The notes beneath the pieces are model-generated. The model saw only the letters and a list, made by a program, of their open reading frames with translations, did not search any database and was not told where the DNA came from. The translations under genes were made by a program, and so were the position numbers. From positions 448,501 to 512,500 of the forward strand of contig JACVVK020000218.1 in NCBI GenBank assembly GCA_018292915.2: 64,000 nucleotides of DNA, written 5' to 3'. Each line of letters begins with the position of its first letter. Position 1 is the first letter of the stretch. Of this stretch, positions 41,132 through 64,000 are shown one piece after another. This DNA is from Batillaria attramentaria (Eukaryota > Mollusca > Gastropoda > Batillariidae).

Positions 41132-44100
41132 TCAATGTGCGTAGGGAGAGGAGAAGAAGTGACTGGGTTTTCTGGGCTCCAGAGTCTTGCTGGCAAACCT
41201 GTTGACAGTCACACAGCTTTATTACCTAGTAGTAGTACGTCAACACCTACAATCACATCTGGATAGGACGGTCTACACAGCTCCATAGCCAGTACATATA
41301 GTTCAACACCTACAATCACATCTGGATAGGACGGTCTACACAGCTCCATACCCAGTACATATAGTTCAACACCTACTATCACATCTGGATAGGACGGTCT
41401 ACACAGCTCCATAGCCAGTACATATAGTTCAACACCTACAATCACATCTGGATAGGACGGTCTACACAGCTCCATACCCAGTACATATAGTTCAACATCT
41501 GTTAAAACCTACAACTCCATACCCAGTACATATAGTTCAACATCTGTTAAAACCTACAACTCCATACCCAGTACATATAGTTCAACATCTGTTAAAACCT
41601 ACAACTCCATACCCAGTACATATAGTTCAACATCTGTTAAAACCTACAACTCCATACCCAGTACATATAGTTCAACATCTGTTAAAACCTACAACTCCAT
41701 ACCCAGTACATATAGTTCAACATCTGTTAAAACCTACAACTCCATACCCAGTACATATAGTTCAACATCTGTTAAAACCTACAACTCCATACCCAGTACA
41801 TATAGTTCAACATCTGTTAAAACCTACAACTCCATACCCAGTACATATAGTTCAACATCTGTTAAAACCTACAACTCCATACCCAGTACATGTACTGTAA
41901 TTCAACACTTGCAGTCATAATTATGTCCAGTATAAGGACAGTCATCCACAGTGGGATGATCAAACTCCTAATCCCCATTACACATTACCCGCTCATCAAG
42001 TCAAAAGTAGGCTGGGTAAGCAAACTATCATGTTGTCCTTACCCAGCGGCCAGTCTCTACTCCTACCCTCCCATACAGGACCCCCCCCCCCCCCTCCCCC
42101 AGTTTAGCTGTACTTCAAGAACACTCTGTACATGACATCACTAATGATCGTCGGGTCATGCATCAAACTGAAAGATAAGAAAGAAGCAAGTATGCAATAG
42201 GACGAGTGGGGATAAGTGACAAAATTGCTATGACTGTTTCAACCCTGCATTTGTACAACTGCTGGTCATAGAGGTAAAGAGGACAATGGCAGGGCCATGT
42301 TGATTACCTGACGACATGGGGTGTCGCAAGTCAGGCCAGCAATATCACACTGCGCTTTCACTAACCGAGGATTGGCGGAACAGCGGAGGCATCAGCCTAG
42401 CCACAGACAAGGACAAGCCAAAAGGTGAAGGTGACATTCTCCAGGGAAAATTGAAAGGTAGAAATGGAGACAAAAGGAAGGACCCAGGAGAGAAGGGCAG
42501 CCAATAGGTCATTTAACTAAAAGTAGTTACTGTTATCAAGAAAACAGTTCAAGATCATCATTAAGGTGGTGGAAAGGATGGATGTGACATGCAAGCTTTA
42601 CGTATAATCAATTATCATATAGTTTCAGAATATTCCCAAGTCCATGTCCCTATTCCACAAATATGTACCCCCTTGCTACATGCAGGAAAACTGTGCAAAA
42701 GCCAACAAATATTTTGTGCAGAACAAATTTCTTGGCAGCTCCGAGAATCAATCAGAAAAAAGAAAAGTATTGTGTTCCTAGTTTGTAGGTTAGAATAATT
42801 ATTAGTATTAGAATGAAAGCTGTCTGTAGCATAGTGTACGTCAAGCAAAATGAGGCTGGTGTAGCTGGGTGTTAGCTTGTGCATGGCTGGTGGGGCCTTA
42901 CTAACTTGGCAACTAGACTAATTATACTGACTACCAGTAACACTACTCACTAACTCAGCGCCACAAATTACCAAGTCTGCTCTACTACTGATAGTCTCAA
43001 ACATCGTCAACACTTGCTAGTCAAAGCATGAACACAACAACAAAAGGAACTAAAACAAAAATAAAATAAACACACACGCACACATGACTGCGAAAAAATG
43101 TCTACGACTGCTGCAAATTTCTGTCCACATACACTTAGGTTAACACACATGATGCCCCACTCTGACAAGAAGTGACTTCTTAGTTGCCATACACTTAGGT
43201 TAACACACATGATGCCCCACTCTGACAAGAAGTGACTTCTTAGTTGCCATACACTTAGGTTAACACACATGATGCCCCACTCTGACAAGAAGTGACTTCT
43301 TAGTTGCCATACTATGATACATCCAAGCAATTTAATCCTAAACCCAAGATACCGACATGTAACTAATGTTCCGAATCAGACCAACAGTGATATTATTTTC
43401 TATCCCTTCAATGAGACAAATCCTTACCAACACACACACACACACACACACCGTCAACAAAAGCAACACAAACTAAAACAGTGAATGACTAGAGAGGCAA
43501 AAGCCTCCATGGCTCCCTTGTGACAAGGGTCAAGGTCATTCACAAGTGTATGTTTGTAAAGCTCTTATCACTATCATCACGGCAAGTAAAGTGTCTCTGG
43601 CGTTCCAAGTTCCTGGCAATATTACAATTTTCCCCCAAACAGTTTGCATGGCCTTGACCTTGGGTCAAGGTCATTAAAATGAGATCACATCAATGTCTAT
43701 TATTATGCCAAGTTTGACGTCTCTAGTATTTGTAGATCCTCCGAAAACGGTAATGTTAAAATTCACAACAGCGTTACTGACCTTGACCTTGGGTCAAGGT
43801 CATTCAAAAATGGTACGTGTGCATAGGTCTTATCACTGTCTATCAGCACGCCGAGTTTGGCGCCTCTGCTGTTTGTTATTTTTGAGAAAATGCCAATGTT
43901 AAGGTTTCACAAAAATAGCTTGTATGGCCTTGACCTTGACACAAGGCCACTGAATACATGTATATCTGTAAAGTTCTGATCAATGTCTATCATCATGCAA
44001 AGTTTCAAACCTCTGGTCTTTGTAGATTCTGTGAAAATGCCAATGTAAAATTTTCAAACAGACAGCGTTAGTGACCTTGACCTTGAGTCAAGGTCATTCA

Positions 44101-44203
44101 AAATGATATGTTTTGAAAGGTCTTATGGTTGTCTATCAGCATGCCAAGTTTGGTGTCTCTGCTGTTTGTAGTTTCTGAGAAAACGACAACGTTAAAGTTT
44201 TCT

Positions 44204-44250
<47 letters not shown>

Positions 44251-44883
44251 GACAGACAGACGACGGAGGGCTATTACATAGACTCCCATTGTTACACAAG
44301 GGAGCCAAAAACTGAAACTAATAATTTCATGTGAACAAAGTGAATAATGGTGAAGTTTGCTGATAACTGCCATGAATTTGTCACTGATGGGCATGTGAAC
44401 AAAGTGAATAATGGTGAAGTTTGCTGATAACTGCCATGAATTTGTCACCGATGGGCATGTGAACAAAGTGAATAATGGTGAAGTTTGCTGATAACTGCCA
44501 TGAATTTGTCACCGATGGGCATGTGAACAAAGTGAATAATGGTGAAGTTTGCTGATAACTGCCATGAATTTGTCACTGATGGGCATGTGAACAAAGTGAA
44601 TAATGGTGAAGTTTGCTGATAACTGCCATGAATTTGTCACTGATGGGCATGTGAACAAAGTGAATAATGGTGAAGTTTGCTGATAACTGCCATGAATTTG
44701 TCACTGATGGGCCCTTGAAGACAAGAAAGCAAGACCAGTTTCTATTTCTTCCTGTTTTCTCAGTTTTAACCAAACAACCAGGCATGATAGTTCACCTTTC
44801 CAACATCCTATTTCTCAAGCTAACAGTAAGAATACACAAGCCATGATAACAAATGCTGAGAAAAGAATGCAAATTAGTGCTGA

Positions 44884-44959
<76 letters not shown>

Positions 44960-47900
44960 TACTTTCTAAGCCTACCATCCAGTCAAACTCGAAAATTATT
45001 TACTTAATAAAACAAAATATTATTAGCCTGCAAGTCAAGCCACACTCACACAAAAGCTGGCTATGTTCTGAAAGCGCCGAGCAAGGTCACCAAGCAATGC
45101 TGTTTTTTGTGTGTGTGTGTGTGTTTTTTTAGAAAGACTATTGTAGTAATTATAGAAGTAATAGTTTGTGAAGCAAGAGACCACTGTAGTATGATATGGG
45201 AAGTACAATGTACTATCTGGTGGATACCGCTAGACACAGGGAAGGGTAGCCATGCAACACCACCAGTAGGAACCATACATGGGTCAGAACAACCAATGGA
45301 CAGTGAAAGACGCAGTGTGAGTATTGCGGCCTGTACAGCGGCCTCATATACACTTTGTATTTGTAAACCCTTTATGCGGAATCAGTAACAATGGATATAT
45401 TTCTCTGGGTACACAAGAAACACAGGCTAGATGGAGACTCCTCCAAATAAACACCACTTACATGGCAGGACAGGTATACACTCGTCCACGTGGTATGTAT
45501 ACGTGTATGTACGTGTATACCAAACCAAAACTAGTCAGTAAATATATTCTAATGACATCGTCCTAAATGATGCATTCCATATACGTATACGGGGCGGTCG
45601 GTGGTCTAGTGGTTAAGAGACTTGTCACCAATGCGAGAGGTCAGGGGTTCGAGCCCCACTCGGGGCAAAGAATTTTTCCTTCTCGTATGTGGCACCGTTC
45701 ATTCGGGCCGATCGTCGGGGGTTCTCTCCGGGTACTCCAGCTTCCTCCCCCTCTGCTTTGGAAATGTTCAGCCCACAAAGTTTGAAAAATAAATGCATAT
45801 CTAAATTCCGAAATTTAAATAGCTGAGCTGACCCTTCGCACCACGTGATTGTAATACGTTTATGTCCTGTGTGTGAGAGAATGCGTGTGATTCACGTGAG
45901 CGTGCGTGTTGGGTTTAGCTCGCGGCGCTTTGAGCCAAAATATTTGGGATAAAGCGCCTATATTAATGCGATTATTATTATTATTATTATTATTTTACAT
46001 GCAATTTCCGACAGCTAAGTACTACTTGTATCAGTATGTAATTTTACATACATGCACAGTGTATACTGCTACATGGCCATAATACAAGTAATTGTGAACC
46101 AAAGTCTGACAAAACAATGTCAAACAGTAGTTAGTTGTGCCAGGACATAAACCAATTTCATTATTATTAATGTCAAATGTGCACTTGACAAGAAAACTAC
46201 TAGAAAATGCTTGCATCATAGTATAGATAACAAAGTAACATGAAACGGGCGAAACAAACTAGTACCCATCAATTCCTTTCACTTTTTTCATGGCACATGA
46301 CTGATATTTGTGATAAAAACAGATGCAAAGTTTAAAGCATTGCTAAGTAAAACTAAAAGGAAAAGGAAGTTTGCAAACTGCCTGAATGTGAAGGTGTAAA
46401 CGTACTACAACTCTTCCTATTGTCATGATTACCTGCTGAATGTGAAGGTGTAAACGTACTACAACTCTTCCTATTGTCATGATTACCTTGGTGTGTTTGC
46501 AGTTCTCTCCCCCAACATACTGTTCTTCTGCAGCTTCTCGTAGGTGCCAGGTGTCAGCACTGGGCCCAGTCGACTGCGCAGAACTACACAGAAAGAGAAA
46601 ACCGATAAAGGTTGTTTCAATGTTTCCAAACAAATTGCTACAGAAAAACAAGTTCAAATAAATTATAACACTACAGAGAACAAAACAAACACTCTACTTG
46701 TGCTAAAGTTTTTTGGGTTTTTTTTTTTTTTTTTATTGTAGGACTGTAACTTACAGCAAGTAACAAGTGTAGTGGTAAGTGGTGTGAAAGGTTTGTGAGT
46801 CAGTAAATGTCTCTACATGACAAATCCTGACAAAGCTAACAGGGGGCAACAGTAACTAAAATAACTTTACCATCATCAGGAACGGGTAAAAAACTGTGCA
46901 TTATTTATATTAACTGGAGCAACAACATTTCACCAGTAATTTGTAAAGAACTGTGCACTTCACATGCTCTGTGTGCGTGTAACGTTTAAAATGTTGTCAG
47001 CAAAATGGCTCCAGTCAGAAAGTGAGGATGTGTTACACACACAAAATGTTAGTCCTGTTCGTCTGTAAGTGAATACAACCCAAACTAGTTGTTTACACTC
47101 ACCCCAGTCTTGTCCTGCTAAATACCAAAAGGACAATACAACCCAAACTAGTTGTTTACACTCACCCCAGTCTTGTCCTGCTAAATACCAAAAGGACAAT
47201 ACAACCCAAACTAGTTGTTTACACTCACCCCAGTCTTGTCCTGCTAAATACCAAAAGGACAATACAACCCAAACTAGTTGTTTACACTCACCCCAGTCTT
47301 GTCCTGCTAAATACCAAAAGGACAATATGGCAAAACTTACACTTCACCATCAGTGGTTTGTCACAAGTGATATACTGTACTAATAATTAAGTGGTTCACT
47401 GTATATGTAATATCAGTCATACACAGTAAAGCTCGTGGTTATAAGCTTTTATGAAGAAAAAATACTACTCAACGGGTAAAAGATGTACACCATTAGTGAT
47501 TACCAAACAATCTGACCAGCAAACACATATATATATATATATATCCTATTTGAAATGAACGTGATCATGTCATGTGTGATGTAAGGGCACAGTACCAGTA
47601 CAAAGGAACAAATCAAATAGCAACTACATGGGAGTATGAAGTAAGCTGCCACAGCCAATATAAAGACGCAAACAGTAAGCAGACATCAAGTTCAACATCT
47701 AAGCCCCACACAGTAACCTCACCTGTACGAGCGGGACTGTCGGGGGTGCATGGGGTGTCAGCAGGGTAAAGACTGACTTCATCTACATCCAGAATCTGAC
47801 ACCAGAAGTCGGCCGGCAGTTCCAGCAGCTTCTCCATCACCTGCACACCACGATAAGTCAGTGAGAAGACACGTGTACGATCTACAATAACCCATCTCCT

Positions 47901-50900
47901 GCACACCACGATAAGTCAGTGAGAAGACACGTGTACGATCTACAATAACCCATCTCCTGCACACCACGATAAGTCAGTGAGAAGACACGTGTACGATCTA
48001 CAATAACCCATCTCCTGCACACCACGATAAGTCAGTGAGAAGACACGTGTACGATCTACAATAACCCATCTCCTGCACACCACGATAAGTCAGTGAGAAG
48101 ACACGCGTACGATCTACAATAACCCATCTCCTGCACACCACGATAAGTCAGTGAGAAGACACGCGTACGATCTACAGTAACCCATCTCCTGCACACCACG
48201 ATAAGTCAGTGAGAAGACACGCGTACGATCTACAGTAACCCATCTCCTGCACACCACGATAAGTCAGTGAGAAGACACGTGTACGATCTACAATAACCCA
48301 TCTCCTGCACACCACGATAAGTCAGTGAGAAGACACGTGTACGATCTACAGTAACCCATCACCTGCACACCACGATAAGTCAGTGAGAAGACACGTGTAC
48401 GATCTACAGTAACCCATCTCCTGCACACCACGATAAGTCAGTGAGAAGACACGCGTACGATCTACAGTAACCCATCTCCTGCACACCACGATAAGTCAGT
48501 GAGAAGACACGCGTACGATCTACAATAACCCATCTCCTGCACACCACGATAAGTCAGTGAGAAGACACGCGTACGATCTACAGTAACCCATCTCCTGCAC
48601 ACCACGATAAGTCAGTGAGAAGACACGCGTACGATCTACAGTAACCCATCTCCTGCACACCACGATAAGTCAGTGAGAAGACACGCGTACGATCTACAGT
48701 AACCCATCTCCTGCACACCACGATAAGTCAGTGAGAAGACACGCGTACGATCTACAGTAACCCATCTCCTGCACACCACGATAAGTCAGTGAGAAGACAC
48801 GCGTACGATCTACAGTAACCCATCTCCTGCACACCACGATAAGTCAGTGAGAAGACACGTGTACGATCTACAATAACCCATCTCCTGCACACCACGATAA
48901 GTCAGTGAGAAGACACGTGTACGATCTACAATAACCCATCACCTGCACACCACGATAAGTCAGTGAGAAGACACGTGTACGATCTACAGTAACCCATCAC
49001 CTGCACACCACGATAAGTCAGTGAGAAGACACGCGTACGATCTACAGTAACCCATCTCCTGCACACCACGATAAGTCAGTGAGAAGACACGCGTACGATC
49101 TACAGTAACCCATCTCCTGCACACCACGATAAGTCAGTGAGAAGACACGTGTACGATCTACAGTAACCCATCTCCTGCACACCACGATAAGTCAGTGAGA
49201 AGACACGCGTACGATCTACAGTAACCCATCTCCTGCACACCACGATAAGTCAGTGAGAAGACACGCGTACGATCTACAATAACCCATCTCCTGCACACCA
49301 CGATAAGTCCAGTGAGAAGACACGCGTACGATCTACAATAACCCATCTCCTGCACACCACGATAAGTCAGTGAGAAGACACGCGTACGATCTACAGTAAC
49401 CCATCTCCTGCACACCACGATAAGTCAGTGAGAAGACACGCGTACGATCTACAGTAACCCATCTCCTGCACACCACGATAAGTCAGTGAGAAGACACGCG
49501 TACGATCTACAATAACCCATCTCCTGCACACCACGATAAGTCAGTGAGAAGACACGTGTACGATCTACAATAACCCATCACCTGCACACCACGATAAGTC
49601 AGTGAGAAGACACGTGTACGATCTACAATAACCCATCACCTGCACACCACGATAAGTCAGTGAGAAGACACGTGTACGATCTACAATAACCCATCACCTG
49701 CACACCACGATAAGTCAGTGAGAAGACACGTGTACGATCTACAATAACCCATCTCCTGCACACCACGATAAGTCAGTGAGAAGACACGTGTACGATCTAC
49801 AATAACCCATCTCCTGCACACCACGATAAGTCAGTGAGAAGACACGTGTACGATCTACAATAACCCATCTCCTGCACACCACGATAAGTCAGTGAGAAGA
49901 CACGTGTACGATCTACAATAACCCATCTCCTGCACACCACGATAAGTCAGTGAGAAGACACGTGTACGATCTACAATAACCCATCTCCTGCACACCACGA
50001 TAAGTCAGTGAGAAGACACGTGTACGATCTACAATAACCCATCTCCTGCACACCACGATAAGTCAGTGAGAAGACACGTGTACGATCTACAATAACCCAT
50101 CACCTGCACACCACGATAAGTCAGTGAGAAGACACGTGTACGATCTACAATAACCCATCTCCTGCACACCACGATAAGTCAGTGAGAAGACACGTGTACG
50201 ATCTACAATAACCCATCTCCTGCACACCACGATAAGTCAGTGAGAAGACACGTGTACGATCTACAATAACCCATCTCCTGCACACCACGATAAGTCAGTG
50301 AGAAGACACGTGTACGATCTACAATAACCCATCTCCTGCACACCACGATAAGTCAGTGAGAAGACACGTGTACGATCTACAATAACCCATCTCCTGCACA
50401 CCACGATAAGTCAGTGAGAAGACACGTGTACGATCTACAATAACCCATCTCCTGCACACCACGATAAGTCAGTGAGAAGACACGTGTACGATCTACAATA
50501 ACCCATCTCCTGCACACCACGATAAGTCAGTGAGAAGACACGTGTACGATCTACAATAACCCATCACCTGCACACCACGATAAGTCAGTGAGAAGACACG
50601 TGTACGATCTACAATAACCCATCTCCTGCACACCACGATAAGTCAGTGAGAAGACACGTGTACGATCTACAATAACCCATCTCCTGCACACCACGATAAG
50701 TCAGTGAGAAGACACGTGTACGATCTACAATAACCCATCACCTGCACACCACGATAAGTCAGTGAGAAGACACGTGTACGATCTACAATAACCCATCTCC
50801 TGCACACCACGATAAGTCAGTGAGAAGACACGTGTACGATCTACAATAACCCATCTCCTGCACACCACGATAAGTCAGTGAGAAGACACGTGTACGATCT

Positions 50901-53900
50901 ACAATAACCCATCTCCTGCACACCACGATAAGTCAGTGAGAAGACACGTGTACGATCTACAATAACCCATCTCCTGCACACCACGATAAGTCAGTGAGAA
51001 GACACGTGTACGATCTACAATAACCCATCTCCTGCACACCACGATAAGTCAGTGAGAAGACACGTGTACGATCTACAATAACCCATCTCCTGCACACCAC
51101 GATAAGTCAGTGAGAAGACACGCGTACGATCTACAATAACCCATCTCCTGCACACCACGATAAGTCAGTGAGAAGACACGCGTACGATCTACAATGACCC
51201 ATCTCCTGCACACCACGATAAGTCAGTGAGAAGACACGCGTACGATCTACAATGACCCATCTCCTGCACACCACGATAAGTCAGTGAGAAGACACGTGTA
51301 CGATCTACAATAATCCATCTCTTGCATATAATTACAGGACTACAGCCCATCAAGCGTAGCAGCCAGTGAAGGAATGTTACTACGCAAGATAATTCCCCAT
51401 CTTCACGCATTACTGTCTCACACAGAACAGTCAATTGTCAATGCATTTCCTAAAGACATAACTTAAGACATGTATGCAGTCAAGCCCTTTTCTATGAAAT
51501 TTGTTCTAAGTTTTTGAACTCTACAGTCACTGTGGAGTTATCAGTAATATCACAGTTATAAATTAACCAATGAAGACTGACCATGGCCTGTTTGCGGGTC
51601 TCGTTGATCATCTGCATGGGTTCAGGCTCGGGACAAGAATAGCCGATAACAGTTGGTCCGAACACCTTGGCCAGGTTAGTGATGGGCATCTTACACTGGG
51701 GACTGGCAGCAACCCTGAACACACATACAGTAGGTTTCATTCTCAGTATTTATTACACAATATTCCAAAGCAGAATGTGAAAACGCAAGCAATGTGTGAA
51801 TGTGATATTACTTGACATAAGCTGATGCTGCAGTACTGAGGGCCTAAACGCAGTGGATTAGATAAGCGCTAAGGCCTTTTGTCTGGATGATGGCAGAGGT
51901 TACTATTGGGAGATTTACTGTTTTAGCAGTAACAGTACACACCAATGTACAAATCAGAGATATAACTGAGCCAGGAGGGACCTGAAATCTGAATCAACAT
52001 ACTCATAGTGCACAAAAGTAAGTCCCCATAGGGGACACTGCCCTTCCTGTTTGTGGCAAGGGAGAGAAGTGACAGCGACAACTGTAATTGAGTATAACCA
52101 TAATAATAAGAAACAAGAGTAAACTGACTTTTGCAGATGCTGTGCGAGGAAGGCGAGTGTGTCCCTGTTGGCAGTGGGTAGACTGTTGATGGCTTCACAC
52201 AGAATGTCATAGCTTGTCTGCGGGCAGTTGTGCTCTGTAGCAGGAAAACAAGTTCAAATAACAGAACAGCACAATGTGCCACACACTATCTCTTGTCCCA
52301 CTATCTACACTCACACAGTACGTCGCACACCCGATACCAGTGATAGGTGAGACAAGTATTTTACAACTGTCGGAAGTGAAGTTCATCCTGCCTCCAACAC
52401 TAGTTTAGTAGTGAGCTGAACGTTCCTGCTGCACGGACAAACTCTGGCCACAGTGCGTAAGTGCTAGTTTAGTAGTGAGCTGAACGTACCTGCTGCACGG
52501 ACAAACTCTGGCCACAATGTGAACGTACCTGCTGCACGGACAAACTCTGGCCACAGTGCGTAAGTGACCAGAGGTTCCTTCAGATTCCTCAGAAAATCTT
52601 TCATACACCCACACACTGTGTGGACATCCATGATGTTCGACTGTAAACACACAGGAAGATAAAATACATAGTAAGTGGAAAATGTACTACATCGACACAC
52701 GTATGGGCTGGCAGAAACAAAGCTAATCCTTGAATCAAACTGGACATTTGATTTATAAATAGTGGTATTCTGCAATAATGGGTAACAATACTCCAGGACC
52801 AGCTGAAAACACTATCAGTATCAGCCTCAACATGCACGTATGTAAAATCTGATCTGCAGACACTGCCAACACCATTGCCATATCTCTGGTCTCATCCCGC
52901 CTGGACTACTGCAATGCCTGTCTTTGGGGTCTTCCAGAATCGCTGCTCCAGCGCCTTCAGCATGTATAGAATGTGGCTGCAAGGATTGTCTCCCGTTCCA
53001 AAAAGACTGATCATATCACACCGGTCCTAAAAGATCTCCACTGGCTTCCAGTCAAGCTTCGCATCGACCATAAGCTTCTCTCCTTGACTTTCTCCTGCAT
53101 TCACGGCACTGCTCCACTATATCTGGCTGAGCTCATACCACTCTATAGACCTTCACGCAGCCTAAGATCTTTTTCCCAGTCCAGACTTGCTGTCCCAGGT
53201 TACTATGACAACACAAACAAGAAACGCTCTGGTGCACGGGCTTTCAAGAGTGCAGCTCCTTGCGTCTGGAACAACTTGCCAGCTCACCTCAAGTCAGGTT
53301 CTGCGTCAGTCATGACCTTAAGACGGAAGCTCACCTCAAGTCAGGTTCTGCGTCAGTCATGACCTTCAGGCGGAACCTCAATACGCACCTTTTCTCTCAG
53401 TTCTAATTTTTTTTTTTCTTCTTCTTCTTCGTCTTCCCCAACCCCAAAGGCGCTGTGAGCATGCTTACTGCATGGAAGTTCTTTTCGTAGTGCTATACAA
53501 ATGGCCAATAATCATCATCATCATCAGTCGTCACTTGAAATGCCCATTTACAATACAGCTGAGACTGTAGAACAACTACTACTCACAAGGTTTGGACTCT
53601 TCCCTTTGAGGAACTTTTCCTTCAGATCTTTACATTCTCTGTCTGACCTGAAACAACACATTACCCTCATGGAAAATACAGTGACAAATGTAAAATAACA
53701 TTCTCTGTCTGACCTGAAACAACACATTACCCTCATGGAAAATACAGTGACAAATGTAAAATAACATTCTCTGTCTGACCTGAAACAACACATTACCCTC
53801 ATGGAAAATACAGTGACAAATGTAAAATAACATTCTCTGTCTGACCTGAAACAACACATTACCCTCATGGAAAATATGACAAGTACAATGACAAATGTAA

Positions 53901-56900
53901 AATAACATTCTCTGTCTGACCTGAAACAACACATTACCCTCATGGAAAATATGACAAGTACAATGACAAATGTAAAATAACATTCTCTGTCTGACCTGAA
54001 ACAACACATTACCCTCATGGAAAATACAGTGACAAATGTAAAATAACATTCTCTGTCTGACCTGAAACAACACATTACCCTCATGGAAAATACAGTGACA
54101 AATGTAAAATAACATTCTCTGTCTGACCTGAAACAACACATTACCCTCATGGAAAATACAGTGACAAATGTAAAATAACACTCTCTGTCTGACCTGAAAC
54201 AACACATTACCCTCATGGAAAATACAGTGACAAATGTAAAATAACATTCTCTGTCTGACCTGAAACAACACATTACCCTCATGGAAAATATGACAAGTAC
54301 AATGACAAATGTAAAATAACATTCTCTGTCTGACCTGAAACAACACATTACCCTCATGGAAAATATGACAAGTACAATGACAAATGTAAAATAACATTCT
54401 CTGTCTGACCTGAAACAACACATTACCCTCATGGAAAATACAGTGACAAATGTAAAATAACATTCTCTGTCTGACCTGAAACAACACATTACCCTCATGG
54501 AAAATACAGTGACAAATGTAAAATAACATTCTCTGTCTGACCTGAAACAACACATTACCCTCATGGAAAATACAGTGACAAATGTAAAATAACATTCTCT
54601 GTCTGACCTGAAACAACACATTACCCTCATGGAAAATACAGTGACAAATGTAAAATAACATTCTCTGTCTGACCTGAAACAACACATTACCCTCATGGAA
54701 AATATGACAAGTACAATGACAAATGTAAAATAACAAGGTAAGAATAGAAATTTATACTTACAATGAGTAAGGCATATTGTTTATTCACAAGGCGGACACA
54801 CTGCTTAACTGAAGCTGACTGTGGCTAGGAATCAAACAACAGATCAGTGTGTGCACGAGTAAGGTGTTTGAGATTCTGCAGCTAGCATGGACAAAGTGAA
54901 AAGTGCCACTGTGATATACTTACCCCGGCACTCTGTAAATCCCAACTTCTGACAGACCCCGCCTCTCAATCTCATTTGCACAATTCACCTGCAAAAACAT
55001 AGCAACACTCAGTGGTTGTGCAAGTCAAATATTAAGTTTCATCCATGCCTCTGAACACAGGCAAACCTGAAGAAGGAAACTGATTACAAAACCAAACTAC
55101 ATGTACCTTCCTACAGTGCCATACACGCAAATCAAGAACTAAGCCTGGTCTGCTGCGGCACACTCAGCGCTGAGTACATTTGACGTGTGTGATTCTATAA
55201 TGCAGTGAGAGAAGATGACTGCAGTAAACTCTCAATGTTCACTTGAGTCTACCAGGCTGGGGAATTCCTCAGGAAAAAAAAGACTGGAACCCAGGCCGGG
55301 GTCCAGGGGCCGCTTATCAGTACATATCAGCACATGCTGGTGCTCTCCTGATTTTAGCCTCTCTGAGAAAGTAGATGGACACAAAATACATGTAGATGCC
55401 ATCCCCATTTGTCTTTTTTTTTTTATCACCCCTTCCTAGGCAGTATCGTGTCTTTCATCGTCGTCATTATCATGAATCGCGTCGTAAGCATATGGCTCGC
55501 TCGTTGCTTCGTTCTTCTAACGAAATGGGGAATTACTGCGGTCTTTATTTTGCGGATGTGTTTGCCAACATGTTCCGTTTCGCAGTCTGCATAGGTCACC
55601 CACCTATCCGTCCGCGCACATAGCCAACGATTCTTCTTGCATTCGTCCCCTAAAGCTTGCCGATGCACAAAAATGTTCCCTAGCGACGACATCGCCAAAT
55701 GCAGTGGCATTGTAAAACATGGCTGACGAAAGCGCCGTAGACGCAAACCGATACGAAAGGAACGCGCGAGTGGTGTGAATTGGCGCCGGAGAATAAAAGC
55801 GGAAGTGACGCTAGGCAGGCCATGGCCGCGCAACATGGCTGCGAAATTGACTCCACGGTGGCACAGCGGTCGGCTCCGACTTCACCCTCCTCCGGATTCC
55901 CCCCCCCCCCCCCGGAGTTTTTTGGGGTGGAAACTTCGATTTTTTGGCGGAAAGGGTCGGGAGTTTGGCGGAGGTCTGCCAATTGGCGGACAATTTCCCA
56001 GCCTGGTCTACACAAGAGAAGCGTGGAAATACTTCCTCCCAAACTACAACTAAATGTTTGCTTTTAACTTCAGTGAAATGCAGCATTCGCCACACACTCA
56101 CACTTTGTCTTTTGGGAGGAAATAACACCACTAGAGAATAAAGTAACATGTCTTTCTTACCACAAGTCGGGGAATCATGGGGCGCTGCACGGGGGCAAAA
56201 TCAGACAGGATGCCCTGAAAACACAAGAGTGCAGAATCATAAACTGGTATTCCTGGCCTCCAGTTCCATGTACAAATACAGAAGCTATTTCCATACCGTC
56301 AGTTAGGGGACATACAGCATCACTTGAACTTTGTATTTAACCCAAGGAATACTAAACACAGGAGAGAGAGAGAGAGACAGAGACTAGAGAGAGAGACTCA
56401 GAGAGAGAGAGAGAGAGAAGAAAAAGAAGAAAGAAAGAAAAAAGAAAAGTAGGAACACATGTTCTCCATACCTCCATGGGTCTGGCGGTGCCGGGTGTGC
56501 TGGGAGCAGACGGGATACAAGGCAGTGGTAACTTCTCCTTACACTCCGGATGGCACGATGCTCGACAATCTACACAACACAGACGCTGGAGTTGTACAAA
56601 CATTAACCAGGACAGTTCAACTAAGACAAAGTAATCACTGAGAAACTCAAGTCAGGACGTGAGGGTAAATGTTGACTGTTAATGCACTCACTTGGACGTG
56701 AGGGTAAATGTTGACTGTTAATGCACTCACTTGGACGTGAGGGTAAATGTTGACTGTTAATGCACTCACTTGGACGTGAGGGTAAATGTTGACTGTTAAT
56801 GCACTCACTTGGACGTGAGGGTAAATGTTGACTGTTAATGCACTCACTTGGACGTGAGGGTAAATGTTGACTGTTAATGCACTCAATTTTGTTTGGTAAA

Positions 56901-59093
56901 GATGTACGGTATTAGAGAAGGCAGAAAAATAACACTTTAAATTGCAAAACAGACACACACTGCTAACAAACCTTTGCACTTCATGGCAACCTTGCCAAAT
57001 CGGATGTTCTTGCCACACTAAAAAAGAGAGAAAAGAAAGCTTTACTGCATATGAGTCATTAATATGACGATATCAAGTTACTGTTAGTTGCCACAATCAA
57101 AGGTCAAGGAAAAGCAGCATAAGAAAGGTCAAACACAAAACAACAGTTTGAATTCACGACCTACACCAGCTTCACACGTCACTTTTCTCCATTATTCACT
57201 CAATTTATGGCAAACATTTTCAAATGGTAACACGCCGCTGGCAAAATGAAACTTGATAATGACAGAGCAGTAACTTACAGGAACACAGGTAGTTGGTTTG
57301 ATGACTGTCCGTGAGATGAACACGTGAACCCTGTTGAGACCACGGCCAGCTGAACTGACTTTACGCAGCCCAGGAGTCCTGCAGCAGAGAATCTGAAGTT
57401 ACAGCAAAATCTTTCCCAAGTGCTTGAAATGTAAAAAACTAATGTGATTTTTATGTGGTTATAGTTGTACCTCACCAAAATGTGATTTTTATGTGGTTAT
57501 AGTTGTACCTCACCAAAATGTGATTTTCATGTGGTTATAGTTGTACCTCACCAAAATGTGATTTTCATGTGGTTATAGTTGTACCTCACCAAAATGTGAT
57601 TTTCTCACAGCAACACCTACACTATCCTGCATGATCTGATCCAATAATAGTCATAACAAACAAACTGTTGTTTTCTTCACTTTGCCTCCTGGATACTGCC
57701 TAATTCTGCAGCACACACACTGCCTCACTTTGCCTCCTGGATACTGCCTAATTCTGCAGCACACACACTGCCTCACTTTGCCTCCTGGATACTGCCCAAT
57801 TCTGCAGCACACACACTGCCTCACTTTGCCTCCTGGATACTGCCTAATTCTGCAGCACACACACTGCCTCACTTTGCCTCCTGGATACTGCCTAATTCTG
57901 CAGCACACACACTGCCTCACTTTGCCTCCTGGATACTGCCTAATTCTGCAGCACACACACTGCCTCACTTTGCCTCCTGGATACTGCCCAATTCTGCAGC
58001 ACACACACTGCCTCACTTTGCCTCCTGGATACTGCCCAATTCTGCAGCACACACACTGCCTCACTTTGCCTCCTGGATACTGCCTAATTCTGCAGCACAC
58101 ACACTGCCTCACTTTGCCTCCTGGATACTGCCTAATTCTGCAGCACACACACTGCCTCACTTTGCCTCCTGGATACTGCCTAATTCTGCAGCACACACAC
58201 TGCCTCACTTTGCCTCCTGGATACTGCCTAATTCTGCAGCACACACACTGCCTCACTTTGCCTCCTGGATACTGCCCAATTCTGCAGCACACACACTGCC
58301 TGGCGGGAAAGTCAGTTTGGGTCGCATGCTCAGGCAGTCAGGGATGAAAAAAAACAACAACAAAAAAAGCGATAAAAATGTGACAACAAACACCAGGACT
58401 CACTCAGGTGTCTTTTTGAGGATGCCTTTCTTGCGTCGGCTGCTGTTGTTGTTGGTGTCTCCCTGTACCCACACTTCTTCATCGCTGTCAGGACCATCTG
58501 CTGTACAATAAGACATCCACCCACTCTCACTAAAGGTATACTGATGTTCAATTTCCAGACAGAGCACTTGCAATGCTTTCTTCTTTTTTTTTTCAATACC
58601 AGTGAAGTTTCAAAAATTAAACTGATGAATCATAAGCTAAAAAGTATCTGTGTTCCAAGAATAGACTTTTGAGGCCATCACCAAAGAAAGATCAACCTCA
58701 TGGCAAAAGAGGAGGAATTGACATCGCAGTCTACCACTTACCTCTCCCCCTGTCAACCTTGTCCAGTGCCGGCTCACTGAAACTCTTGTTCAACTTGGGC
58801 ACAGTCACCTCCGTCATGGCCGACACAGGCTTGCCTGCTCCGTCCACAGTGATGGTAGTGGTTGTTACAATGGAGTTGTCCAGGTCCTGTCAACAGATTT
58901 TTCACAGAAACTAAGAAGTGAATTCATACTCATGGCTCCCTAAAAGCTACAGACCTAAAGGGTCCACTGACCCCCAGTTCAAAATTTTAGGGGGTCTTTG
59001 TACCTCCACTTTCAATTTTTAAAGGGTCAGAATCATTTCTCAAGTTTTTAGTGCATGGAATTATAAATTCAGTAAATACTGCTAAACACTGGC

Positions 59094-59178
<85 letters not shown>

Positions 59179-62100
59179 CAAAACTGAATTTTATCAACTT
59201 CAACATATAATTAAATGAAGTGGGTACAATTCAGTTTTGAAAGTTGGAAACTCTGACTTTTTGCTGCTCTGTGCCGACTCTGATGCGACGTCTGAATCAG
59301 TCGTAGCTCTCTATGCGACGCCGAAGTCAGTGTTCCCGCTGCCGGGCGAGGGCTCGAGCCCCTCCACCACTTTTCCGCTGACAAAAAAGTCCATAGTCTT
59401 TTGAACTTTCACTTTTTTCGGTGGCATGATTCGTCACAGAGAAAGCGAATCCGATCGGTAACAAGAGCACTGACTCTAAAATCTTTCGTCCATAGTTTCG
59501 AGCGCAGAAGCAGAAAAAGATGGGGCACGTTCACTACGCGCGAGTGGCTGTAGTAGCCGCCGATCTGCAGCAGTAGACAGTTAACGCCTGCGCGCGTTAA
59601 ACAGAACCAAAAACAGAACCGAACTGAACGCGGCCGTGGCAAGGGAGAACACTCACTCGATCACAAGCCTATAGGCGTACGCATGGTAGTGCAGAGGTAG
59701 TGCGTCAAGCTAAGCACAGATCGCGTTCATAATGCTTCAACGTACCCCCTCGAAATTTTTTTAGGACGTAATTTTTTACTTCAGTGCGTAAATTACGCAC
59801 AGACGCACAGTTTAGGGAGCCCTGATACTGTATTACATCACCACCACAACTAAGCAACAATACTAAACTTTCCTTCACTGCAAATGTTCAAATGAATAAG
59901 CACACATGAAAATGGACAAGAAGTGATAAAAGTGCAGGCAACTGAATCAACACGCACACTACCACTTGTAAAAGTTTGTTTTTCAACAGAACTCGCTTTT
60001 GTTACGACAGGGTGTACACTATTCAATAGGACTTGCCTCTTTGTGACGTTTGGGAGGTGTGTTGCCATTCCGCTCATCCAAGTAGTCCTCCATTGGTGGA
60101 GCTGATGGCCGCTTCCACTTGCGGCCACTACGCAGGCGTGACGCCTCCAAGTCATCCTCTGTTTTGTCGTAACTGATATCATTATCAGACAAAATGGAGG
60201 CTGATGATTCCAAGATTGTGTTCAACCTACAGAACAAAACCCAACACAACGCAAACTGTCAAACAAATCAGAAAACAAAAGCATCAGCAGCACAAGGAAT
60301 ACAGATAGATTTATGCTAGTTATTAAATTAGCGTATAAATTAGTAGTGTTACATGTGATATTATGAATAGTGCAAAAACAAGCACACAATGTACAGGACT
60401 CTGTTGACTTGACAATCAAAAACTGAGAAAGAAAGGAAAAGGTGTAGAAACATCCCAGACTAACACAACTTATCCCCCCCCCCTCCTCCCCAACCACTGA
60501 AATTATGTTACCTTTATTATAAAACGTTACCCATGCGACCAACCTAAACCATTAAACTGTTCAAACTGTTCTCTATAAACAACTCCAGCACTAGTAGCAA
60601 CACCTTCTCGTAAGTAGCAACACCTTATTGTATGTAGCAACATCTTATCAAAAGTCAAATTTTCACTTATTATTCTAGTCAGAACGACCAGCAGCAATGA
60701 CAATCCTGAACGCACCTACAGACTTAGCCCTACTAGTACCATTTTTTACCATCTCAAGCAAAGCAATGCTTACTTTCCAGGCGACTTTTCTCCAGCGTGG
60801 CTGGTACGAGCATAGCTGTTGTAGAGAGTGTGAAGACGCTCCCTGTCTGCTTCGTGAAGGTAGCTCTTGCTATTTTTGTCCGTCAGCAAGTCTCGGATAA
60901 CATCCACTTGACGCTCCTAACACATAAATTTATGCACACACACACACACACACACAAGATTTAAATAAACAATTGTCCCTCGACTTGTGAACTGAAACTA
61001 AACTGAAAGACTACCTGAACTTGGTGAATATTGAAAACTACCTTAGCTGAGTCTGAATAACCACAAATTATAGTAAACACCATATTTCAGATAAGATCAT
61101 CTGTAAACACACATCATCATCATAAACTGTATAAATTCACCAGTATTTCACCTACCAGATTGGCTCTTTCTTGTTCAGCCTCGTTTCGCCTTGACAGCTC
61201 ATACTGAACTTGATTCCTGCATATATTATTTACTTGAGTATTATTACCAATTTTTACCATACTCAAAATGAATTCCACATCCATCAAAAATACCAATATA
61301 TCTTTACGTTTATCAACACCATGCTCCAATCCACATACATACACCGACCACACGTATCCATACGGACGTATCCAGGGCTCCCTAAAAGCTACAGACCTAA
61401 AGGGTCCACTGACTTCCAGTTCAAAATTTTAGGGGGTCTTTGTACCTCCACTTTTAATTTTTAAAGGGTCAGAATCATTTCTCAAGATTTTTAGTGCATG
61501 GAATTATAAATTCAGTAAATACTGCTGAACACATAAGGTGTGTGTGTGTGTGTGTGTGTGCAAAACTGAATTTTATCAACTTCAAATCATATAATTAAAT
61601 GAAGTGGGTACTGTCCGTACAATTCAGTTTTGTACACTAAGTTTTGCTGCTCTGCGCCGACTCTGATGCGATGTCTGAATCGTAGCTATGTGACGCCGAA
61701 GTGCATCCGCTGCCGGGCGAGGGCTCGAGACCCTCCACAACTGACTTTTTCACTGACGAACTAGAGAGGCAGAAGCCTCCATGGCTCCCTTGTGACACAG
61801 GTCAAGGTCATTCACAAAAGTATGTTTGTAAAGCTCTTATCACTATCCATTATCATGCTAAGTAAACTGTAAAGTCTCTGGCGCTCTGAGTTCCTGGCAA
61901 TATTACAATTTTCCCCGAAACAGTTTGTATGGCAATATTACAATTTTCCCTGAAACAGTTTGTATGGCCTTGACCTTTGGTCAAGGTCATTTAAATGCGA
62001 TCTCATCAATGTCTATCATCATGCCAAGTTTGATGCCTCTAGTATTTGTAGTTCCTCCGAAAACAGTAATGTTAAAATTCACAACAGACAGCTTTAATGA

Positions 62101-63644
62101 CCTTGACCTTCAGTCAAGGTCATTCAGAAAGGTAGTTCTCATTGGTGTCTATCATCATGCCTCGTTTGGTGCCTCTACTGTTTGTTATTTTGGAGAAAAT
62201 GCCAAGGTTAAAGTTTCCCCCCAAAAAACACTTGCATGACCTTGACCTTGACTAAAAGTCACTGAAGACAGGTATGTCTGTAAAGGTGCTGCCAATGTCA
62301 ATCATTGCACATAGTTTGATGCTTCTGTTTCTTCCAGATACTGAGAAAATCAAAAATGCAAATGTAAAATTTCTCAACAGACTGTTTTAATGACCTTGAC
62401 CTTCAGTCAAGGTCATTTAAGATGGTATGTGTGCATAGGTCTTATCACTGTGTATCAGCATGCCAGGTTTGGCACCTCTGCTGTTCGTTGTTTCTGAGAA
62501 AATGCCAATGTTAAGGTTTCACAAAAATATCTTGTACGGCCTTGACCTTGACACAAGGCCACTGACTACATGTATATCTGTAAAGTTCTTATCAATGTCT
62601 ATCATCATGCAAAGTTTAAAACCTCTGGCATTTGTAGATTACGAGAAAATGCCAATGTAAAATTTTCAAACAGAGCTTTAGTGACCTTGACCTTGGGTCA
62701 AGGTCATTCAAAATGATATGTTTTGAAAGGTCTTGTGGTTGTCAATCAGCATGCCAAGTTTGGTGCCTCTACTGTTTGTAGATTCTGAGAAAATGACAAT
62801 GTTAAAGTTTTCTGGACACACACACACACAGACAGACAGACGACGGAGGGTTAATACAACTCCCATTGTTACACAAGGGAGCCAAAAAGTCCATAGTCTT
62901 TTAAACTTTCACTTTTTTCGGTGGCATGATTCGCCACAGAGAAAACGAATCCGATCGGTAACAAGAGCACTGACTCTAAAATCTTTCGTCCATGGTTTCG
63001 ACATCGCACGTACGCCGGGTGTTTCAGTGCGCAGAGGGAAAAGATGGGGCACGTTCACTACGAGCGAGTAGCTGTAGAAGCCGCCGACCTGCAGCAGTGG
63101 ACAGTTAACGCCTGCGAGCGTTAAACAGAACCAAAAACAGAACCGAACTGAACGCGGCCAAGGCAAGGGAGAACACTCATTCCATCACAACAAGCCTATA
63201 GGCGTACGCACGGTAGTGCAGAGGTAGTGCGTCAAGCTAAGCACAGATCGCGTCCATAATGCTTCAACGTACCCCCTCAAATTTTTTTCAGTACGTAAAT
63301 TTTGACTTCAGTGCGTAAATTACGCACAGACGCACAGTTTAGGGAGCCCTGGTATCTCAAGAGAACCTAAACGACAGAAAATTGATAGAACACACCATTA
63401 CCATATTATGAAACAGTATTAGTAAGCAACAAGAGTATACAACTATCGGTAAACAACTATACCCCCCCCCCCCCAAAAAAAAAACAAGCTGTGCAGTCGT
63501 ACCGAGCATGCTTGACTTGTGTTTCCAGTTTGGCATTTTCTGACTGCAAACGTTTGATCTGGTCCTCAACACTCTCGTATTTCTGCTCGGCAGCCAGCCA
63601 GCGACGACGATTATCTTCTTGGTTTAACACGAATGACCTAAATT
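41132..63644 (-). CDS. RACGAP1: Rac GTPase-activating protein 1 (MgcRacGAP/CYK-4), 5' end outside window
   Basis: Eighteen exons, 5' to 3': 63644-63503, 61216-61156, 60916-60774, 60226-60037, 58886-58742, 58500-58404, 57378-57279, 57017-56972, 56569-56472, 56214-56161, 54988-54924, 53647-53587, 52640-52529, 52234-52129, 51714-51582, 47840-47723, 46583-46487, 41198-41132 (TGA). Every phase fits, giving about 610 residues against 632 in human. The order is coiled coil (LQSENAKLETQVKHARNQVQ), acidic linker (SASILSDNDISYDKTEDD), C1 zinc domain (TVIKPTTCVPCGKNIRFGK...DCRASCHPEC), RhoGAP with arginine finger in GLSEVGIYRV, KDFLRNLKEPLVTY and NLAKVFGP, then a basic tail (NTPRFASK...FFSSP). As half of centralspindlin with MKLP1 it controls cytokinesis. 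One intron uses a GC donor. The first roughly 30 residues lie past 64000. Confidence 0.96.
41230..41890. repeat. Two adjoining minisatellites (63 bp x4, 45 bp x9)
   Basis: The first unit contains CATCTGGATAGGACGGTCTA, the second CATCTGTTAAAACCTACAAC. Both share CCAGTACATATAGTTCAACA, so the second looks derived from the first. They lie immediately upstream, in transcript sense, of the last RACGAP1 exon. Confidence 0.95.
43127..43310. repeat. 60-bp minisatellite, 3 copies
   Basis: Perfect or near-perfect units starting ACACTTAGGTTAACACACAT in the last RACGAP1 intron. Confidence 0.95.
43489..44310 (+). mobile_element. Non-autonomous element with TCAAGGTCA palindromes, copy 1
   Basis: Starts CTAGAGAGGCAAAAGCCTCC, then TGGCTCCCTTGTGACAA; ends with (CA)n, (CAGA)n, CGACGGAGGG and TTGTTACACAAGGGAGCCA. 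The GGCTCCCTTGTG string near the left end is inverted at the right end. The interior repeats TTGACCTTGGGTCAAGGTCA about every 150-290 bp. A second copy is at 61761-62887. No coding capacity. Confidence 0.8.
44332..44715. repeat. 64-bp minisatellite, 6 copies
   Basis: Unit begins AAAGTGAATAATGGTGAAGT; very uniform (C/T difference in TCACTGATGGG). Confidence 0.96.
44885..44958. repeat. (CA)n microsatellite
   Basis: About 37 CA units. Confidence 0.98.
45590..45990 (+). mobile_element. tRNA-derived SINE, family 1, copy c
   Basis: The best preserved copy. The tRNA-like head has GGTGGTCTAGTGGTTAAGAG and GGTTCGAGCCCC; the body has GTGATTCACGTGAGCGTG and GCGGCGCTTTGAGCC, then an ATT repeat tail (45969-45993). 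Confidence 0.85.
46385..46490. repeat. 53-bp direct duplication containing a 5' splice site
   Basis: Two copies of TGAATGTGAAGGTGTAAACG through GTCATGATTACC. The right copy contains the real RACGAP1 donor (AG/GTAATCATGAC on minus); the left copy repeats GTAATCATGAC. Confidence 0.9.
47072..47325. repeat. 63-bp minisatellite, 4 copies, with a possible 12-nt micro-exon
   Basis: On the minus strand each unit reads GGTATTTAGCAG, then 12 nt (GACAAGACTGGG), then GTGAGTGT. It lies in the intron between RACGAP1 exons 47723-47840 and 46487-46583. Confidence 0.93.
47834..51330 (-). repeat. 58-bp minisatellite, about 60 copies, each with a 3' splice site
   Basis: On minus the unit includes CTGACTTATCGTGGTGTGCAG followed by GAGATGG or GTGATGG. 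The last copy is the genuine acceptor of exon 47723-47840, whose coding sequence starts GTGATGGAG. The array fills about 3.5 kb of a 3.74-kb intron. Variants are mainly A/G in ACACGTGTACG and A/T in CATCACC. Confidence 0.97.
52412..52565 (-). repeat. Tandem copies of a RACGAP1 exon 3' end and its donor
   Basis: The string TGGCCAGAGTTTGTCCGTGC then AGCAG/GTACGTTC (minus) occurs at the true exon end (52529). It recurs about 37 nt and about 99 nt downstream; the most distal copy has GAACG in place of GTACG. Confidence 0.88.
52850..53405 (+). mobile_element. LINE (CR1/L2-like) reverse-transcriptase 3' end, degenerate
   Basis: The plus frame gives SSRLDYCNACLWGLPESLLQ, a stop at about 52967, then VAARIVSRSKKTDHITPVL, LHWLPVKLRIDHKLLSLTF and APCVWNNLPAHLKSGS. 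These are the C-terminal landmarks of non-LTR reverse transcriptases of the CR1/L2 type. A 40-odd-bp stretch near 53285-53370 is duplicated. It ends in a CAT-rich tail near 53512-53527. Lies antisense in a RACGAP1 intron. Confidence 0.85.
53628..54736 (-). repeat. 66/75-bp minisatellite: 16 tandem 3' splice sites
   Basis: On minus each unit includes GGGTAATGTGTTGTTTCAG/GTCAGACAGAGAATG. The copy at 53648-53649 is the true acceptor of exon 53587-53647. Acceptor spacing from it outwards is 66x3, 75x2, 66x4, 75x2, 66x4 nt, all multiples of three. The frame of the exon stays open through all copies. Confidence 0.97.
55440..56040. other. GC-richer insert in a RACGAP1 intron, unassigned
   Basis: A CpG-rich block with ATGGC-containing strings, a poly-C run (55900-55913) and TTTGGCGG repeats. 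It might be a mobile-element fragment or an internal regulatory block. No exon or known family recognised. Confidence 0.3.
56655..56885. repeat. 39-bp minisatellite, 6 copies
   Basis: Unit GACGTGAGGGTAAATGTTGA plus CTGTTAATGCACTCACTTG. Minus-strand units contain AAGTGAGTGC, which resembles a 5' splice site, and TTAACAG. Located between the two C1-domain exons. Confidence 0.95.
57440..57605. repeat. 38-bp minisatellite, 4 copies
   Basis: Unit TGTGATTTTTATGTGGTTAT plus AGTTGTACCTCACCAAAA. In a RACGAP1 intron. Confidence 0.94.
57675..58300. repeat. 48-bp minisatellite, 13 copies
   Basis: Unit CACTTTGCCTCCTGGATACT plus GCCTAATTCTGCAGCACACACACTGCCT, with T/C variants. As 48 is a multiple of three, repetitive frames of over 200 codons appear on both strands. 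They have no gene support. Confidence 0.97.
58931..59824. mobile_element. hAT-like non-autonomous DNA transposon, copy 1
   Basis: Ends CATGGCTCCCTAAAA and TTTAGGGAGCCCTG as terminal inverted repeats. It is flanked by a perfect 5-bp duplication ATACT (58926-58930 and 59825-59829). The interior holds a (GT)n tract (59097-59174) and no transposase. The CAG...CTG ends and 5-bp duplication suggest a hAT-type family; the superfamily is inference. Confidence 0.88.
59097..59174. repeat. (GT)n microsatellite
   Basis: About 39 GT units inside the DNA transposon. The other copy of the element has only about 12 units at the same place (61539-61560). Confidence 0.97.
61373..63351. mobile_element. hAT-like non-autonomous DNA transposon, copy 2, with nested insertion
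   Basis: Ends CAGGGCTCCCTAAAA and TTTAGGGAGCCCTG, flanked by a perfect 5-bp duplication GTATC (61368-61372 and 63352-63356). Colinear with the copy at 58931-59824 except for an insertion at about 61761-62887. The two copies thus give occupied and empty versions of the same site. Confidence 0.9.
61761..62887 (+). mobile_element. Non-autonomous element with TCAAGGTCA palindromes, copy 2 (nested)
   Basis: Same start (CTAGAGAGGCAGAAGCCTCC) and end (ACACAAGGGAGCCAAAA) as 43489-44310, but longer inside. Palindromic or near-palindromic TGACCTTGACCTT/AAGGTCA blocks are near 61970, 62100, 62395, 62540 and 62684. No coding capacity. Confidence 0.85.
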
Positions 63645-64000
63645 CTGCAAGGCAAAAAGTTATTTCATCCAAATATAGAACTTTATAGTTGCAACGACTG
63701 TGTGGAGATTCTAGTGCTGATCCTAATGCAACGGACATGTCCAACATACTTGTGAAACTCAGGCCTTTCAAATGTTTGAATAAAAAATGTGGTCTGAGCA
63801 CAGCAATGCATGACTAGCTCAGTAGCTGAACCATTCGATTGCACAAACAAGGTATAGAAGGTGGGAGCGAAAGGCAAGAACAAAGGCAAGTCTTTTGTTT
63901 TGAGTAAACAGATTGAATGATTGAAGTTGAAGGCTGTCACCAGTGTCAGCCTGCAGACACAAATTTATGAATAGACTTCAAACGTTACAGCTTACTTACT

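Follow-up and report, generated by a model that had tools for sequence, protein, structure and literature searches.

Minisatellites that straddle a 3' or 5' intron/exon boundary, multiplying a splice signal beside the intact one, are known from amphioxus, where such 'mirage' minisatellites have been reported in Adh3, troponin C and the globins BflGb6 and BflGb9, with similar repeats in PGBD5, and where, as far as the accessible text of these reports goes, splicing is normal (PMC3087553, PMC3902484). Here we describe arrays with the same organization, again at both kinds of boundary, in a 64,000-nucleotide stretch of the genome of the mud snail Batillaria attramentaria (GenBank assembly GCA_018292915.2, contig JACVVK020000218.1, positions 448,501 to 512,500 of the forward strand; hereafter the window, numbered from its first nucleotide). 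The minus strand of the window carries a gene that its exons and domains identify as RACGAP1, one intron of which contains 16 identical copies of a 3' splice site, the last being the acceptor of the following exon itself. With these arrays, minisatellites at splice boundaries, known from amphioxus, are seen in a mollusc as well; the literature searched, whose scope left out most subscription journals, showed no molluscan example.

The snail arrays differ from the amphioxus mirages, as the accessible parts of those reports describe them, in scale (arrays of 16 and of 60 acceptors, compared with 6 and 3 units for the two BflGb6 haplotypes), and further in their molluscan host, in affecting four boundaries within one gene, and in being known from the DNA sequence of a single haplotype. 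NAGNAG and other close tandem acceptors are competing 3' splice sites a few bases apart before one exon, whereas the acceptors of the 16-copy array lie 66-75 nucleotides (nt) from each other, each with its own upstream intron sequence. In a study of intron gain in potato RdRp, each unit is reportedly bounded by GT and AG, an arrangement said to form the core of the model. The duplicated segment in the snail likewise contains AG|GT, as in the tandem duplication of AGGT segments set out in the available portion of that study (PMC4974935), but it runs across the border of an intron already present, with no sign of a new one. The same juxtaposition of acceptor and donor as AG|GT is the core of the Drosophila ratchet points, from which, to the extent that the consulted excerpt describes them (PMC8605326), the snail array differs in its short intron, its tandem copies, its weak to moderate donor and in the purely hypothetical status of stepwise splicing.

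Sixteen copies of one acceptor in an intron of RACGAP1

The 16-copy array lies between the exon ending in GIYRVPG and the 61-nt exon SDRECKDLKEKFLKGKSPNL (Table 1), where exact copies of TTGTTTCAG|GTCAGACAG follow one another on the minus strand, each an exact copy of the acceptor 18-mer TTGTTTCAGGTCAGACAG. Neither strand of the window contains a further copy of this 18-mer with 0 to 3 mismatches, and an exact search of the whole assembly (715,342,989 bases in 863 contigs) returned 16 matches, all of them in the array. Successive acceptors are separated by 66,66,66,66,75,75,66,66,66,66,75,75,66,66,66 bp (66x4, 75x2, 66x4, 75x2, 66x3), each unit taking in 16 bases of exon and 50 or 59 of intron, with CAG|GT in every one of the 16. 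Three unit types can be told apart, viz., a 66-bp type (a), a 75-bp type (b), and a single copy of a further 66-bp type (c) with a silent change; relative to the 75-bp unit, the 66-bp unit has lost 9 bp and shows a single T-to-C change. The units are ordered as 75-66-66-66-66-75, repeated, and Tandem Repeats Finder reports both a period of 66 (53632-54704, 15.7 copies, 96%) and a higher-order period of 414 bp (53632-54735, 2.7 copies, 99%).

The unit stops 16 bases into the exon (GTCAGACAGAGAATGT), at the point where unit and real exon diverge, and its other end meets the intron at a 3-bp TGT match in the junction sequence. At the edge of the cluster the authentic boundary is intact, with the last copy continuing into the 61-nt exon and the 612-residue frame, while the 414-bp higher-order blocks and near-identical units within the cluster are signs of repeat turnover. 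All 16 acceptors read in phase into SDRECKDLKEKFLKGKSPNL without a stop, the longest insert amounting to 342 residues, and on the coding strand of the array two frames out of three are open. An earlier reading of the letters of this DNA (hereafter the original prediction) had described the 16 copies with their 66- and 75-nt spacings, the block-wise duplication, the shared phase and openness up to 342 residues, and the second open minus frame, and all of these are borne out by the exact matches, the unit order with its 414-bp period and the reading of the frame from each acceptor. The presence of the repeat in this intron is far above chance; its openness and phase are not.

On the evidence of its sequence, the host gene is RACGAP1, whose orthologs act in cell division. 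When proximal splice sites are used throughout and the 17 introns removed, the exon pieces join into a single 612-residue frame that aligns with gastropod RACGAP1. The exons match one by one (tblastn) to proteins listed with both the C1 and the RhoGAP Pfam domains, the RhoGAP segment matches human RACGAP1 structures in a PDB sequence search, and R176 of the GIYR motif, which we take to be the catalytic arginine finger, is invariant in a 27-sequence alignment. An orthologous relationship is thus indicated by the C1 and RhoGAP domains, the invariant arginine finger and the co-linear exons, and the exon-wise matches to gastropod RACGAP1 agree with the gene, domain and array position named in the original prediction. 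The annotated B. attramentaria protein BaRGS_004972 (P0126) can be aligned with the window one exon after another, the match being 100% for the exon following the 16-copy array and for the next exon. One intron of the gene, at 60037 (GAG|GCAAGT), is likely of the GC-AG type and is used in the 612-residue frame.

Table 1. Positions of RACGAP1, its boundary-spanning arrays and adjacent exons in the window, and of two kinesin arrays elsewhere in the assembly
Feature	Position	Strand	Details
RACGAP1 as modelled	41135..63648	-	18 exon pieces, 17 introns, 612 residues; N-terminal start not included
Exon upstream of the 16-copy array	54924..54988	-	ends GIYRVPG; donor GGG|GTAAGT at 54924/54923
Intron holding the 16-copy array	53648..54923	-	1,276 nt; about 188 nt unique, then array
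Boundary-spanning minisatellite ('mirage' type)	53632..54735	-	66- and 75-bp units; repeat finding, exact copies
16 identical acceptors TTGTTTCAG|GTCAGACAG	53647..54682	-	exact copies; last is the exon's own acceptor
First exonic bases of the 16 acceptors	54673, 54607, 54541, 54475, 54409, 54334, 54259, 54193, 54127, 54061, 53995, 53920, 53845, 53779, 53713, 53647	-	
Exon after the 16-copy array, 61 nt	53587..53647	-	SDRECKDLKEKFLKGKSPNL; donor CTT|GTGAGT at 53587/53586
Duplicated 5' splice site of exon 52640-52529, 39 bp	52481..52555	-	donors after 52529 and 52490; in frame, open
Second acceptor mirage, 60 near-identical copies of TTATCGTGGTGTGCAG|G	47834..51326	-	spacing 58 (58 times), 59 (once)
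Exon after the 60-copy array	47723..47840	-	VMEKLLELPADFWCQ...; exon matches
Duplicated 5' splice site of exon 46583-46487, 54 bp	46382..46488	-	donors after 46487 and 46433
Kinesin acceptor array, 11 acceptors	L044 1457-2208 (G000:C76)		spacings 76, 67, 67, 72, 72, 72, 67, 65, 67, 67
Kinesin donor array, 3 donors	L057 2793-3036 (G000:C190)		81 and 84 bp; in phase, in-frame TGA

Phase and openness in the boundary-spanning arrays

The original prediction had set out what use of the upstream acceptors would do to the protein; that their common phase and openness mean such use is not supported when the unit is shuffled and arrays of the same style are compared. When the intronic part of the unit is shuffled with its dinucleotides preserved, 58-61% of trials have an open exon frame and 60-64% have at least two open frames, the real array having two, which upholds the caution attached to the original prediction that openness alone is no proof. 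The window contains 42 non-redundant arrays with a period of at least 20, of which 13 have a unit that is a multiple of three, and each of these 13 has at least one open frame of the six. Constant phase offers no separate evidence of selection because the lengths 75, 66 and 414 can all be divided by three and the later exchange of units keeps phase; for the apparent 75-bp duplication and 9-bp deletion, divisibility by three would in each case have had a chance of one in three.

The comparison with RACGAP1 and kinesin controls presupposes expressed, functional genes, something that their intact frames make likely without proving it. Six boundary-spanning arrays were found in this genome, four in RACGAP1 and two in kinesin genes. 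Both phase and openness are found in two of the six, namely the 66/75-bp acceptor array and the 39-bp donor duplication, against about 1.2 expected by our arithmetic (one third for phase, about 0.6 for openness), so the in-frame array is not exceptional, six being a small sample. The 58-bp array, the kinesin acceptor array, the 54-bp donor duplication and the kinesin donor array are not both in frame and open. The keeping of frame as a sign of selection is not supported.

In the 58-bp array, which precedes another RACGAP1 exon with 60 acceptors, 20 of the 59 upstream acceptors are in phase and none is usable, as all 59 hit a stop before the end of the exon; this array is a stronger natural test of splice-site choice than the 16-copy array. 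Seven of the 10 spacings in the kinesin acceptor array are not multiples of three, and none of its 10 upstream acceptors is usable: one is in phase but with stops, the other nine are out of phase, and nine of the 10 meet a stop. The 54-bp donor duplication is a multiple of three, yet an in-frame TAA follows at once. A third copy of the 39-bp duplication, near 52428, has GA where GT is expected. The same gene also contains an intronic array of four 63-bp units (47072-47327), in which each unit holds TTTAGCAG|GACAAGACTGGG|GTGAGT and might constitute a repeated pseudo-exon.

The predicted insert and its place in the protein

P0126 is without an insert at the 16-copy array, at the 60-copy array and at the 39-bp duplication; its end diverges from the window ahead of the 54-bp duplication, and the comparison covers the other three boundaries. 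None of the 225 homologs complete over the segment carries the snail insert, a set drawn from the best 120 of 130 and the best 120 of 1080 matches, which together gave 238 sequences from which 13 incomplete ones were dropped. The segment is 32 or 33 residues long in 213 of the 225, and 43 residues in the longest. The 410-residue insert frame returned no Pfam domain, and no protein match at E<=0.01 among 5999 word-sharing candidates, restricted to 0.55-1.75 times the query length, from a database of about 5.8 billion proteins.

In an AlphaFold2 model of P0126 (predicted template modelling score, pTM, 0.56; block means of the predicted local distance difference test, pLDDT, of 87-97 over residues 141-330), R176 is followed by a loop, and the two exons meet between G179 and S180, where the helix 181-192 starts. 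The 22- and 25-residue inserts are hydrophobic (mean hydropathy 0.47 and 1.12, respectively), and an insert of this kind, placed three residues past the finger, would be likely to impair catalysis.

Choice among the 16 acceptors

Because the acceptors share the 18-mer exactly, and the unit almost exactly, site strength cannot select among them; what sets them apart is how far they lie from the downstream donor and from real exon sequence. In view of the exact copies and their block order, the single 612-residue frame joined at proximal sites, the lack of the insert in P0126 and the complete homologs, the failure of the protein search to match it, the unusable acceptors at the other RACGAP1 exon and in the kinesin gene, the normal splicing of amphioxus mirages and the lack of enrichment of splice sites in arrays, we consider it probable that the array is a boundary-spanning minisatellite of the mirage type whose proximal acceptor is used by exon definition, with the other 15 acting as decoys; an in-frame series of isoforms is not supported. 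The array appears to have begun with a tandem duplication, at the TGT match, of a 75-bp segment comprising 59 nt from the end of the intron and 16 nt from the start of the exon. A 9-bp deletion would then have produced the 66-bp unit, and an unequal exchange of 414-bp blocks, to which the unit order points, would have raised the number of acceptors to 16. The open frame would be a by-product of a unit length that is by chance divisible by three. During splicing, the 61-nt exon would pair its GTGAGT donor with the nearest acceptor, and the remaining 15 would leave with the intron.

Some observations count against this reading. The next two acceptors upstream would define exons of 127 nt, within the 46-190-nt range of the gene, and 193 nt, just above it, so that exon definition alone does not forbid the nearest copies and some low-level use is possible. 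The absence of the insert from P0126 is weak evidence, since repeats were masked prior to gene prediction according to the available text of the Batillaria genome paper (PMC10382545). Moreover, the predicted RACGAP1 of another caenogastropod, Nucella lapillus (P0122), contains SDREAKDLKEK twice, an 11-residue tandem duplication located at the exon start where the snail has its 16-copy array; it may be a related event or an effect of the gene model, and it suggests that some insertion is perhaps tolerated at that spot. Were the first or second copy upstream used on rare occasions, the protein would gain 22 or 44 residues by the arginine finger and would probably be a poor GTPase-activating protein (GAP).

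A regular use of the upstream acceptors as in-frame alternative 3' splice sites, generating a ladder of isoforms with 22- or 25-residue inserts that perhaps tune GAP activity, would make good sense of 16 copies that are all identical, in phase and open, and of an insertion point in the loop before a helix (G179/S180, helix 181-192); the acceptor score of 13.1, among the upper five of the 17 in the gene on a model built from the same 17, would also suit it. We nevertheless regard it as unlikely, given that the insert is seen in neither P0126 nor the 225 complete homologs and that the protein search with its frame found no match, that about 60% of shuffled units are open too, that the 58-bp array and the kinesin acceptor array keep no frame, and that a hydrophobic insert would sit after the invariant R176. 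If several acceptors were used, the locus would encode an isoform series in its copy number; if only the last is used, as we favor, proximity to the downstream donor must outweigh the order of transcription. The two arrays, one placing 16 identical and the other 60 near-identical acceptors ahead of a single exon, are extreme natural constructs.

A different outcome of upstream acceptor use is suggested by the AG|GT of each copy: splicing to such a site would regenerate the donor GGG|GTCAGA, from which the unit could be spliced again in the manner of a ratchet, leaving the mRNA always the same. CAG|GTCAGA is present in all 16 copies, GTCAGT serves twice as a real donor in RACGAP1, and the regenerated donor, on a score model built on just 17 donors, reaches 6.6, which is above 10 of the 17 real donors (leave-one-out), the highest among the five of 17 junctions of the gene that regenerate GT, and in the top 2.4% of the 5150 GT sites on the strand. 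Against this, the intron is only 1,276 nt long while the Drosophila points, in the part of the report at hand, lie mainly in long introns (PMC8605326), and AG|GT is mostly missing from the 58-bp array, where 50 of the 60 copies have AG|GA. We rate such a ratchet as improbable, and hold the same low expectation for its fuller form, in which the array would clean itself by up to 15 rounds of re-splicing down to the proximal exon, with occasional 22-residue isoforms as escape products; were it true, minisatellites would be tolerated at AG|GT boundaries through re-splicing. That the copy number is wholly or partly an artefact of assembly is least probable and seems to us very doubtful. It could be entertained on the grounds that there is one assembly, from long and short reads with purged haplotypes as given in the accessible text (PMC10382545), in which the exact 18-mer search found no second haplotype of the array, but the ordered unit types with a private variant and the unrelated arrays of the same style elsewhere in the genome speak against it.

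Array density and a survey of kinesin and myosin genes

Arrays occupy 26% of the window and 38% of its 41-64 kb portion, whereas for kinesin genes the share is 2.9% across 20 regions and 6.3% (1185 of 18805 bases) across five additional stretches, by which measure the RACGAP1 region is unusually array-rich. Four of the 34 RACGAP1 splice sites lie inside arrays, against 13.0 expected from circular shifts over 41-64 kb, a depletion (P(<=4)=0.011) that would be anticipated were exons to resist invasion. Under a random-birth null, with one random unit for each of 19 arrays, 1.7 would be expected (P(>=4)=0.08); an enrichment of arrays at splice sites was not found, with the birth null allowing a modest excess.

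The survey of kinesin and myosin genes considered at least 134 kinesin matches (122 of 217 candidates scored) and 81 myosin matches, of which 88 (69 + 19) and seven, respectively, were checked for an array at most 25 bases from the match; the kinesin match at C12:3595925-3596143, which lay beyond its stretch, was left out. An array crosses an edge in two of these 95 matches, both kinesin, where match edges are only approximations of exon edges. A third array (on C179) stays within its match, with 8 bp between it and the edge, and is not included in the count. Elsewhere in the window, the sole Rfam match is of the tRNA family, at 11288-11359 on the plus strand (35.6 bits).

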